Source: Paractinoplanes maris
GTDB lineage: Bacteria > Actinomycetota > Actinomycetes > Mycobacteriales > Micromonosporaceae
Direction of reading: 5' to 3'
Length of the DNA: 64,000 nt
Assembly (NCBI RefSeq): GCF_023544465.1
Contig: NZ_JALPVL010000001.1
Location: 930,001-994,000, forward strand
Within the stretch, counting starts at the first letter, position 1, and every line of letters begins with the position of its first letter. The position numbers were made by a program, and so were the translations under genes. Under the pieces are notes generated by a model, which was not told the origin of the DNA, made no database searches, and saw nothing but the letters and a program-made list of their open reading frames with translations. Shown in pieces: positions 1,805 through 42,579 of the stretch.

Positions 1805-2890
1805 CTACTTCGACAGACTGTTGCGACGGGCGAGCAACTTGGCGGCGACCGTCAGGACGAGCACGATCGCGACCAGGGTCAGCGCGGCCGTCCAGGCGCG
1901 CGCCGGGGCGTACCGCGAGGCGTCACCGGCCTGCTGGTACACGAAGAGCGACAGGGACTGCTGACCGCCGGCGAACGGGTCGAAGTTGATCGCCGCGGCG
2001 CCACCGGCCACCAGCAGCACCGGTGCGGTCTCGCCGGCCGCGCGGGCGACGGCGAGCATGACGCCGGTGACGATGCCGGGCAGGGCGGTGGGGACGACGA
2101 CCTTGAGGATCGTCTTCCACTGGGGCACCCCGAGCGCGTACGCGCCCTCGCGCAGCGGCCCGGGAACCAGGCGCAACATCTCTTCCGTGGAGCGCACGAT
2201 CGTCGGCAGCATCAGCACGGTCAGCGCCAGCGAGGCGGCGAAACCGGAGAACCGCGGCGTCCCGTTGTTGAACCACGGGCTGACGATCAGCACCCAGAAC
2301 GAGAGGATGAACAGACCGGCGACGATGGACGGGATGCCCGTCATGACGTCGACGAAGAAGCGGACGGTGGTGGCGAACTTGCCCCGGCCGTACTCGACCA
2401 GATAGATCGCGCCGAGCACACCGAGCGGCACGGCCATCAGCGTGGCGATGCCGACCTGCTCCAAGGTGCCGATGATGGCGTGGTAGGCGCCGCCGTCGGG
2501 GTCCCGGGCGCCGATGTTGTTCATCGACGAGCCGAAGAAGTCGCCGTCGAGGCGCCCGACGCCCTTGGAGATCAGCGTCCACACCACCGACGCGAGCGGC
2601 AGGATGGCCAGCACGCAGGCGGCGTAGATGAGCGTCTTCCACATGCGGTCGCGCGCGGCCCGGCGGCCCTCGATGCGGCCGGCCACGATCTGAAGACCCA
2701 CCAGATAGAACACGACGCCGAGAACGACACCGAGCACGTAGTTGCCGATGCCGAAGCCGTACGCCACGGCCATGCCGACGACGAGCGCGGCCACGGCGAT
2801 GCCGATGTTCAAGCCCGGGTGGAGCTTCTGAGATCGAATGTTGTCCGGCGTCATGACGACGCCGGCGGACTCACGTTCAAGAAGGCTCAT
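1805..2890 (-). CDS. pstA: Phosphate ABC transporter permease PstA
   Basis: The second membrane subunit of the phosphate importer, 361 residues. About eight hydrophobic helices are visible: two or three N-terminal helices beyond the usual PstA core, then the binding-protein-dependent permease domain with the EAA-type loop ([21 protein letters not shown]). The ATG at 2890 is chosen because AGGGGAG lies about 7 nt upstream and because the codon overlaps the stop of the preceding mini-cistron as ATGA. The frame stays open upstream through the 74-bp repeats to about 3073, but that extension is Arg-rich, repeat-encoded and would run over the pstC stop, so it is probably not translated as PstA. Confidence 0.95.
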
Positions 2891-3066
2891 GCTGGGCTCC
2901 CCTGGGACATGCGCTCCTGGCCCTCGCCTGCGAGGCCGTCCATAGGTGCGGCTGAGTGCCGCTCGGTGCAGTCGCTCATGCTGTGCTTTCGAGGCATGCG
3001 CTCCTGGCCCTCGCCTGCGAGGCCGTCCATAGGTGCGGCTGAGTGCCGCTCGGTGCAGTCGCTCAT
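2887..3066 (-). CDS. 59-codon mini-cistron made of a duplicated repeat, between pstC and pstA
   Basis: A small open frame of 59 codons, too short to be recognised by family. It consists of a 24-residue unit beginning MSDCTERHSAAP and ending GEGQERM, a five-residue spacer, the same 24-residue unit again, then six residues and TGA. The ATG overlaps the pstC stop (ATGA at 3063-3066) and the TGA overlaps the pstA ATG (ATGA at 2887-2890), so a ribosome could pass through pstC, this frame and pstA without leaving the mRNA. The two units are identical at the DNA level, so selection on the peptide cannot be judged from this copy. It may be a translation coupler, a real small protein, or a frame that is merely open in a spreading repeat. 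Related DNA occurs at 41591-41645. Confidence 0.5.
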   Translation of the reverse strand: MSDCTERHSAAPMDGLAGEGQERMPRKHSMSDCTERHSAAPMDGLAGEGQERMSQGSPA

Positions 3067-3068
3067 GC
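2908..3068 (-). repeat. Two identical 74-bp direct repeats (2908-2981 and 2995-3068)
   Basis: The 74-bp copies match base for base and are separated by 13 bp, giving an 87-bp period, which is 29 codons. On the minus strand each begins GCATGAGCGACTGCACCG and ends CGAGGGCCAGGAGCGCATG. Internal hairpins are possible: GCGGC-ACTCA-GCCGC and CCTCGC-AG-GCGAGG. A diverged copy with the same ends but a shorter middle lies at 41591-41645 in another operon, so this is a dispersed family rather than a local duplication of pst sequence. Confidence 0.95.
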
Positions 3069-4133
3069 CGCACTGTCCCGGAACTCGCGCCGACGGTAGA
3101 TGATCGCCCGGGCTGCCATGTTGACCACCAGGGTGATCGCGAAGAGCACGAGGCCGGAGGCGATCAGGGCGCCGCGGCCCGTCTCGTTGGCCTCGCCGAA
3201 GGAGTTGGCGATGTTGGCGGCGATCGAGTTACCGCCGTTCTCGATGATGTTGAACGAGATGTTGAAGACCACACCCAGCGTCAGGGCCAGGGCGATCGTC
3301 TCGCCGAGGGCGCGGCCGAGACCGAGCATCACGGCGGCGATCACACCGGGCTTGCCGTAGGGCAGGACCGCGGTGCGGACCATCTCCCACTTGGTGGCGC
3401 CGAGGGCGAGCGCGGCCTCCTCGTTCATGCCCGGGGTCTGCATGAAGACCTCCCGCGACAGCGAGGTCACGATCGGCAGCACCATGATCGCGAGCACCAG
3501 GCTGCCGAGCAGGACCGAGCGGCCGAACGGGCCGTCGCCACCGAAGATCGGGATCCAGCTGAAGTATTCGTTGAGCCACAGGGAGAAGTTGCGGACCGGC
3601 TCCAGGAAGACGTCCCGGCCCCAGAGGCCGAAGACGACGCTGGGCACGGCGGCCAGCAGGTCGATCACGAAGCCGAGCGGGGTGGCCAGCCGCTTGGGGG
3701 CGTAGTGCGAGAGGAACAGCGCGATGCCGAGAGCGATCGGCACCGCCACGAGCAACGCGATGATCGAGGTCAGCACGGTGCCGAAGGCGAGGACCGCGAT
3801 ACCGAACTTCGGCTCGGTGTCGTTCGGGAACCACGACTTGTAGGTCAGGAAGTTCTCGGTGTCGGCATTGATCGCCGGCACGGCCTTGGAGATCAGGAAG
3901 ACCGCGATGGCGACGATGATGACCAGCACCATCGCGCCCGCCGCCACGGAGAGGCCCTTGAAGCCGGCCTCCATGCCGAACCGGGTCTTCTTGGGCAGGG
4001 CGCCCCCGCCGCCGAATGGGGGTTCTTCGTAGCTCCTCGGAGAAACACCGGTGCCGGCGCCCCGGGCATGACGTCCAGTCACACCCAGGTCGCCGGCGGT
4101 GGCGTTCTCCGAGCGGGAGGGGTTGTCACCCAT
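3063..4133 (-). CDS. pstC: Phosphate ABC transporter permease PstC
   Basis: The first membrane subunit of the phosphate importer, 356 residues. After a polar, probably cytoplasmic N-terminal stretch of about 50 residues come six or more hydrophobic helices. The PstC-typical FGLWGRDVFLEP and the EAA-like loop (MNEEAALALGATKWEMVRTAVLPYGKPG) are clear. It follows pstS by 38 nt in the same direction. Its TGA overlaps the ATG of the repeat-derived mini-cistron that precedes pstA. The start is the ATG at 4133; no strong ribosome-binding site is visible. Confidence 0.97.
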   Translation of the reverse strand: MGDNPSRSENATAGDLGVTGRHARGAGTGVSPRSYEEPPFGGGGALPKKTRFGMEAGFKGLSVAAGAMVLVIIVAIAVFLISKAVPAINADTENFLTYKSWFPNDTEPKFGIAVLAFGTVLTSIIALLVAVPIALGIALFLSHYAPKRLATPLGFVIDLLAAVPSVVFGLWGRDVFLEPVRNFSLWLNEYFSWIPIFGGDGPFGRSVLLGSLVLAIMVLPIVTSLSREVFMQTPGMNEEAALALGATKWEMVRTAVLPYGKPGVIAAVMLGLGRALGETIALALTLGVVFNISFNIIENGGNSIAANIANSFGEANETGRGALIASGLVLFAITLVVNMAARAIIYRRREFRDSAA

Positions 4134-41590: not shown

Positions 41591-41645
41591 GCATGAGCGA
41601 CTGCACCGGAATGAGCGGAGCGGTTCGAGGGCCAGGAGGGCATGC
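41591..41645 (+). repeat. Diverged copy of the pst intergenic repeat, at the start of the ROK gene
   Basis: 55 bp that begin GCATGAGCGACTGCACCG and end CGAGGGCCAGGAGGGCATG, the same ends as the 74-bp repeats at 2908-3068. The middle is about 20 bp shorter and unrelated. It begins directly after the SIS stop (TAG 41588-41590), and its ATG at 41593 opens the reading frame of the ROK kinase. Confidence 0.8.
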
Positions 41646-42579
41646 CACGCCGGCTCAGCGCCGGGTGGTGGTCGCCCTGGATGTGGGCGGGACGGGCATG
41701 AAGTGCGCGCTGGTCCGCCCGGACGGGACGGTCCACCACACCGAGCGGCACCCCACCCAGGCCGAGCGCGGCCCGGAGGCGGTGCTCGGCACGATTCTCG
41801 ACGTCGCCGAGGGACTGGCCGCAAAGGCCCGCGCCGACGGCCTCGAACCGGTGGCGGCCGGGGTGGCCGTGCCCGGCGTGGTCGACGAGGAACACGGCAT
41901 CGCGGCCTGGTCGTCCAACATCGGCTTCCGGGACGTTCCGGTCCGGGCCCGCGTCGAGGAGAGACTCGCCGTGCCCGCCGTGCTCGGCCACGACGTCCGC
42001 GTGGGCGGCATGGCCGAGGCCCGTCTGGGCGGCGGCCGCGGACACCGGCACGTGCTGTTCGTCGCCATCGGCACCGGCATCGCGGCCGCGCTGGTGGTCG
42101 GCGGGGCCGGCTACTCCGGGGCGCACGGCGCGGCCGGCGAGCTCGGCCACATCGTCGTCCGGCCCGGCGGCCCGCTCTGCCCCTGCGGGCAGCGGGGCTG
42201 CATGGAGTCCCTGGGCTCGGCCCGCGCGGTCGGGCTGCGCTACGCCGAGCTGGCCGGCGCCCCGGGCGCGACCGCGCTCGACGTCGTCACCCGGGCCGGC
42301 CAGGGTGACGACCTGGCCCGTACGGTCTGGCGGGAGGCGATCGAGGCGCTGGCCGACGGCATGGTCACCGCGCAGGCGCTCTACGACGTGGGCGTGCTCG
42401 TGATCGGTGGCGGCCTGGCCGAGGCCGGCGACGCCCTGCTGCGGCCCCTGGAGGACGCGTTCCGGGAGCGGCTCACATTCCACCGCCCACCCGCGTTCGT
42501 CCGCGCCGGCCTGGGGGACGAAGCCGGTTGCATCGGCGCCGCCCTGCTGGCCCTCGACCACCTGGAGAAGCTGTCATGA
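41593..42579 (+). CDS. ROK-family kinase, probably N-acetylglucosamine kinase
   Basis: 328 residues. The phosphate-binding DVGGTGMKCALV starts at residue 30, GHDVRVGGMAEARLGGGRG leads to the catalytic region, and the ROK zinc motif is CPCGQRGCME. The first ~19 residues (MSDCTGMSGAVRGPGGHAT) are encoded by a copy of the dispersed repeat also found before pstA; ROK kinases normally begin near residue 24, VVVALDVGG. A true start may therefore lie after the repeat, but no obvious initiation codon with a ribosome-binding site is seen there. With nagA and the SIS gene, it probably phosphorylates GlcNAc at C6. Confidence 0.9.
   Translation: MSDCTGMSGAVRGPGGHATPAQRRVVVALDVGGTGMKCALVRPDGTVHHTERHPTQAERGPEAVLGTILDVAEGLAAKARADGLEPVAAGVAVPGVVDEEHGIAAWSSNIGFRDVPVRARVEERLAVPAVLGHDVRVGGMAEARLGGGRGHRHVLFVAIGTGIAAALVVGGAGYSGAHGAAGELGHIVVRPGGPLCPCGQRGCMESLGSARAVGLRYAELAGAPGATALDVVTRAGQGDDLARTVWREAIEALADGMVTAQALYDVGVLVIGGGLAEAGDALLRPLEDAFRERLTFHRPPAFVRAGLGDEAGCIGAALLALDHLEKLS

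Follow-up and report, generated by a model that had tools for sequence, protein, structure and literature searches.

The window analysed here is a 64,000-nucleotide stretch of the Paractinoplanes maris genome (contig NZ_JALPVL010000001.1, positions 930,001 to 994,000), in which the pstC gene (4133..3063, minus strand) and the pstA start codon (ATG at 2890-2888, minus strand) are separated by a short repetitive segment. The flanking genes were identified as encoding PstC upstream (TIGR02138, E 2.8e-85) and PstA downstream (TIGR00974, E 4.7e-82), in each case above the curated cut-off. The segment is spanned by a 59-codon ORF (3066..2887, minus strand) with an ATG overlapping the pstC stop codon (TGA at 3065-3063) and a TGA (2889-2887) overlapping the pstA ATG. 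An earlier note, made from the sequence letters, had described this frame and two identical 74-bp repeats 87 bp apart (2908-2981 and 2995-3068); the description was correct to the base, and the gene coordinates confirmed both overlaps. Over the full 87 nt, the two copies are 93% rather than 100% identical because the arms differ. A 34-nt part of the repeat, allowing up to 3 mismatches, was found twice in the window and was absent from each of 100 shuffled sequences.

The two units belong to a family of elements with a common anatomy. On the sense strand, the left end consists of a C directly before ATGA N CGACTGCACCG and is followed by a variable middle, and the right part reads GGGCC(A/G)GGAG N' GCATG r1 r2, followed by a right arm, commonly like AAGGAGGCACAGC, and then by the next NTGA; NTGA (ATGA or GTGA) is thus found at both ends of the insert. 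Both ends are set by the search pattern, which makes their conservation a given; the middle is highly variable, and what the family conserves is nucleotides and base pairs. Among 100 primary elements, the length from ATG to GGAG was 66 nt in 55, 65 or 67 nt in 12, 46 nt in 24, 44, 45, 47 or 48 nt in eight, and 57 nt in one. In the window, unit 1 adjoins pstC (2980..3066, minus strand; 87 nt, counted from its ATG up to but excluding the next one) and unit 2 adjoins pstA (2891..2979, minus strand; 89 nt), and the cores of both (3001-3066 and 2914-2979) fit the family pattern. The right arm of unit 2 includes AGGGGAG (2897..2903, minus strand), a putative Shine-Dalgarno-like sequence 6 nt before the pstA ATG.

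Searching the P. maris genome at the DNA level with the repeat gave further copies. Two covariance models built here, R1 for the long form and R2 for the short form, together identified at least 15 units at 13 sites (E 5.4e-6 or better) among the best 150 first-look candidates, a sampling in which weak copies may be missed; one further match (E 0.086) was excluded from this count. By our reading of the tables, the gene overlap is kept at 10 of the 13 sites. Of the other three, one is fused to a ROK-family gene, one stops early ahead of a ferrochelatase gene and one lies beside an alternative frame of a sigma-factor-like region. The pattern ATGANCGACTGCACCGN{15,45}GGGCCNGGAG was present in 47 of 67 genomes of the genus, and a reversed-pattern control gave 0 matches in every genome listed. 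In a named collection the pattern marked 87 stretches, all from Actinoplanes or genera grouped with it (Paractinoplanes, Amorphoplanes, Winogradskya, Couchioplanes, Pseudosporangium, Nucisporomicrobium, Mangrovihabitans and Symbioplanes, which we take to be its close relatives). At the level of the bacterial family, R1 (E up to 1e-7) matched 82 of 250 genomes and 5 of 44 genera; 57 of these genomes are in the window's genus and 25 in four other genera, with 22 of the 25 in genus g4, presumably Micromonospora. In the other genera the element takes a minimal form, often in tandem, except that a g31 genome has the long form.

The earlier note had envisaged that the repeat might be held by no other genome, or that copies might lie at random relative to genes. 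The family instead spans the genus, with a shorter form in other genera, and its copies sit at junctions of genes unrelated in function, among them genes for phosphate uptake, heme synthesis, branched-chain transport, a carboxylase and an aldolase. The top matches of open-access literature on Actinoplanes, Micromonosporaceae, Micromonospora and MIRU-like repeats contained no description of such a family, and the portion consulted of the Actinoplanes SE50/110 genome paper mentions short repetitive contigs and no such repeat family (PMC3364876). Arrays of at least two minimal-form units precede one same gene in several g4 genomes (L257, L258, L259 and L263); this gene has a start like MTMHTLSVLVENKPGVLARVSGLFSRR and by eye resembles that for the acetolactate synthase small subunit. 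Three elements with the flank GTC (L063, L109 and L134), also judged by eye, lie beside the start of an opposite-strand gene rather than between co-directed genes.

A comparison of pst operons in relatives had been proposed in the earlier note. The pstC-pstA junction was readable in 66 of 67 genomes of the genus, lying off the contig in G026, and its state was called by eye, with the start in G042 read by hand. In 49 genomes the junction is empty and the pstC TGA overlaps the pstA start, and in 17 an insert is present at exactly this spot. As the same junction exists empty and filled, the element can be taken to move. The number of units is 0, 1, 2 or 4, varying by genome; single units, arrays aside, measure 41-88 nt, and the inserts include long, short and very short types as well as other repeats. 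The junction is empty in G002, the nearest genome by PstA (96% identity). On a tree built from the final 480 nt of pstC, the junction must have changed state 12 times or more, and well-supported branches force 8 of these changes; with shuffled labels an average of 15.2 changes was needed.

In 13 of the 17 pst inserts the mini-ORF ends precisely on the pstA start, and in G012 the start is reached via two chained units, giving 14 of 17. Of the others, G041 and G042 hold a single unit at the spot occupied by the tandem pair in the window, with an insert frame that overruns into pstA by 14 nt, and the insert in G019 is a 21-nt in-frame extension. The upstream flank is GGC at 10 of 17 occupied sites and at 8 of 49 empty ones, suggesting either a target preference or a change of the flank upon insertion. 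A different type of insert sequence, GAGCGAAGCG-like or with related motifs, was seen in G032, G043, G046 and G065 (L201, L205, L219 and L220). These inserts, too, occupy precisely the ATGA and have their end at the pstA start, indicating that several repeat families use one site.

The junction downstream of hemC (product above the cut-off of TIGR00212), which precedes a gene for a uroporphyrinogen-III methyltransferase-like protein (TIGR01469, below its cut-off), is occupied in 4 of 67 genomes and without the element in 63. At all four occupied junctions the insert is 66 + 23 nt and the overlap is kept. The last HemC codon is GCA at the four occupied sites and GAA at nearly all empty ones, so the element seems to supply the C before ATGA, and insertion seems able to alter the last residue of the upstream protein.

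A -4 overlap at the next gene requires the combined length of unit and arm to be 2 mod 3. An NTGA follows GGAG at a distance of 13-32 nt in 95 of 110 distinct units, and in 77 of these 95 the combined length is 2 mod 3 (0 mod 3 in 16 and 1 mod 3 in two). When arm lengths were shuffled, the mean was 41.6 and the maximum 59 in 10,000 trials; unit length and right-arm length compensate each other, preserving the frame. Among the matches listed, and leaving out arrays with a gap between units such as that in G037, array periods of 1 mod 3 occur in 0 of 14 arrays of the genus and 0 of 13 arrays of other genera. An upstream frame of at least 80 codons ends on the element TGA in 85 of 100 primary elements and does not in 15. 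In 75 of 100 the mini-ORF stop meets the start of an ORF of 80 codons or more, with 15 and 31 for the other two phases, and by our own reading 7 of the remaining 25 end on a following, sometimes degenerate, unit. Both gene frames fit at 65 of 100 primary elements, compared with 172 of 1748 other ATGAs in the same 87 named loci.

The long forms were aligned (A2; 53 of 55 listed, L039 and L122 left out), as were the short forms (A1; 25 of 29, L046, L105, L118 and L142 left out) and MIRU-like units discussed below (A3; 26 of 29); elements close to locus ends were dropped. RNAalifold folded the 53 long-form sequences into one long hairpin in which 97.6% of cells are paired and 60 cells are doubly changed, where shuffles gave 13.8. 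When the partner was shifted by 1-3 columns, pairing fell to 26-44%. Tandem G.A oppositions stand between the helices, and columns 29, 67 and 68, which are not fixed by the search pattern, hold A, G and A in 52, 53 and 52 of 53 sequences, respectively. There are 31 G-U cells and 5 A-C cells in A1 and A2 together, an excess that indicates the sense strand. In the minimal form, one helix swaps letters yet stays paired: each of two variable pairs is formed in 28 of 30 units. Folding energies of the window units as single strands were no better than those of shuffles (z -0.39 for 74 nt, -0.93 for 138 nt and -1.41 for 102 nt), nor were those of the short element found elsewhere in the window (z +0.43) or of window sequences folded as DNA (z -0.52 and +0.49), so that the predicted fold depends on covariation. 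As RNA, a minimal-form unit and a MIRU-like unit did outperform their shuffles (z -2.3 and -2.2).

The closing pairs of the predicted hairpin use the last bases of the upstream host gene. Of the 89 primary elements that carry GCATG, 87 pair base -2 with r1, where 2000 shuffles gave a mean of 55.3 and a maximum of 67, and 77 pair base -3 with r2 (shuffle mean 66.4, maximum 73). Positions l4 to l10 showed no pairing excess in the same 89. The bases N and N' form a Watson-Crick pair in 76 of 101 cases, G-G in 17 and another combination in 8. Base -2 pairs in 27 of 30 minimal-form units, the three misses being later units of one array (L263), and, of a small sample (n=8) of later units from long and short arrays, six pair at base -2 and four at base -3. 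At a shared site the flank and r differ together (GAC with TC in L035 and L085, GGC with CC in L112), and at hemC they can pair at three of the four occupied sites, with G-U counted. By these family statistics, the final pstC bases GGC before ATGA (3067..3069, minus strand) would pair with CC at 2993-2994 inside unit 1 and close a sense-strand hairpin (2993..3069, minus strand), predicted from the covariation of the 53 relatives with a single-sequence energy that is not significant alone. The inner bases that match the flank may come from copying at insertion or from later selection.

It is fairly probable that the element is a MIRU-like, non-autonomous, non-polar mobile interspersed repeat. 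Such an element would land on an ATGA or GTGA stop-start overlap, its left end supplying the TGA of the upstream gene and opening the mini-ORF, and its right arm, usually with a Shine-Dalgarno-like GGAGG, would bring the mini-ORF stop onto the next start. Ribosomes could then re-initiate twice instead of once, coupling translation through the element, so that the insert need not be polar and, with ribosomes handed on through the mini-ORF, could survive in operons of unrelated function. A factor encoded elsewhere would move it, it would persist by being non-polar rather than useful, and the hairpin may be the mobile form, a coupling aid or both. Of the suggestions in the earlier note, the best fit is a repeat that depends for its survival on not being polar, as ATGA overlaps are entered and frame and overlap are mostly kept; in its anatomy the element would also suit a portable translation coupler. 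The overruns in G041 and G042, the extension in G019 and the few elements facing an opposite-strand gene run counter to the non-polar reading, and in one screen, as far as the extract consulted goes, a hairpin right after a stop codon tended to lower coupling (PMC12548453).

A rival account is a selected regulatory RNA, with a hairpin that would adjust how much of the second gene is expressed and with copies kept for their usefulness. In its favour are the strong covariation with a G-U excess on the sense strand and the joint change of flank and inner bases at shared sites. However, presence is patchy at each junction (17 of 66 at pst, 4 of 67 at hemC), the neighbouring genes are functionally unrelated, the middle varies freely, and Rfam gave 0 matches among the loci searched, at the gathering score (5 loci) or at E up to 1 (5 loci), making this account unlikely. 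The third suggestion of the earlier note, a gene for a small functional protein, gains from the open state of frame 0, which is interrupted by a stop in only 1 of 99 distinct elements whereas stops in the middle part were found in 29 and 19 elements for the other two frames. Nevertheless, the 59-aa peptide matched 0 families in NCBIfam and Pfam, the residues of the middle differ widely among copies in which nucleotides and base pairs are conserved, codon 2 covaries with a base near the other end, and certain members are fused with the gene that follows or end prematurely; the suggestion is thus very improbable. A local tandem duplication of no wider meaning would account for two identical tandem copies in the window, but has a negligible chance given that G041 and G042 have a single unit in this position and that units occur throughout the bacterial family, findings which refute it as the origin of the unit itself, though tandem duplication is likely to be how one unit became two.

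The non-polar mobile repeat favoured here has a counterpart in the MIRUs of mycobacteria, a standard typing marker with unsettled mobility and function. Excerpts of the relevant papers describe MIRUs as apparently mobile in many mycobacteria, with start codons as their insertion sites and an ORF whose coupling is at -4 nt (PMC12548453), as restricted to M. leprae and the M. tuberculosis complex (PMC4213456), as placed in 5' UTRs (PMC4128351), and as elements of 40-100 bp at 41 locations (PMC2734929). The last source, in the section seen, also gives the rnc-fpg1 gap as 358 bp in M. tuberculosis and 1-20 bp in non-complex species, M. leprae excepted (54) (PMC2734929). Like MIRUs, the present family is a dispersed repeat of ~40-100 bp between genes, its tandem copy number varies (0, 1, 2 or 4 at pst), its short ORF overlaps flanking co-directed genes at its ends (both in 65 of 100 elements; 14 of 17 at pst), and it occupies TGA/ATG sites that lack it in relatives (49 of 66 at pst, 63 of 67 at hemC). 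By this analogy, the family appears to work like mycobacterial MIRUs. However, its sequence and closing stem differ, and its hosts are Actinoplanes, Paractinoplanes and similar genera rather than mycobacteria. A MIRU core, GAGCGNAGCGATGAGGAG, had 0 matches in the P. maris genome and as a pattern marked 18 of 397 genomes of the order, 17 of them in one genus (g51). The MIRU-like elements found by this core often run from ATGA to ATG, but array periods of 1 mod 3 occur in 3 of 8 of their arrays among the matches listed, so they follow no such frame rule. As GAGCGNAGCGA is common to the MIRU-like elements and the minimal form of Micromonosporaceae, common descent is possible on the strength of this sequence and the placement.

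Other short repeats share single features with the family. REP/BIME elements are short imperfect hairpins between genes that are moved in trans by RAYT transposases, and the present elements are likewise short hairpins between genes; unlike these elements, REP/BIME sequences have, to our knowledge, neither placement on stop-start overlaps nor a frame-keeping ORF. Rickettsia palindromic elements also persist by keeping a reading frame, but they lie inside protein-coding genes and not at gene junctions. Tentatively, there may be an order-wide class of translation-transparent mobile hairpins, with MIRUs as its mycobacterial branch, in which the host gene's final bases close the terminal stem and the inner partners are rewritten at each site, by copying at insertion or by later selection. 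A family outside pathogens, with many copies, junctions in both empty and filled states, a countable frame rule and a fold backed by covariation, makes non-polar entry into operons and the agent that moves the repeat testable. It also serves as a warning for annotation, since a short ORF at a junction of this kind is not necessarily a protein gene.

Identity with integron attC sites was weighed and dropped. The short forms carry GCGNAGC (A1 columns 35-41), with the loop GAA in 13, GGA in 9 and GCA in 2 of 25. GCGAAGC is a very stable DNA mini-hairpin according to the part consulted of one report (PMC4686876). Transposition of single-stranded DNA via GNA loops was considered, as this mini-hairpin in the short forms would favour it, but the G-U cells fit RNA equally.

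The second element in the window, at another of the 13 sites, is a short form (41593..41660, plus strand) between a SIS-domain gene and a ROK-family gene, and its ATG is in frame with the latter. The resulting in-frame fusion (41593-42576, plus strand) has ~26 extra residues before the ROK domain. At the same junction L058 has a related short element, and L269 and L278 have minimal forms, which keep the overlap instead.
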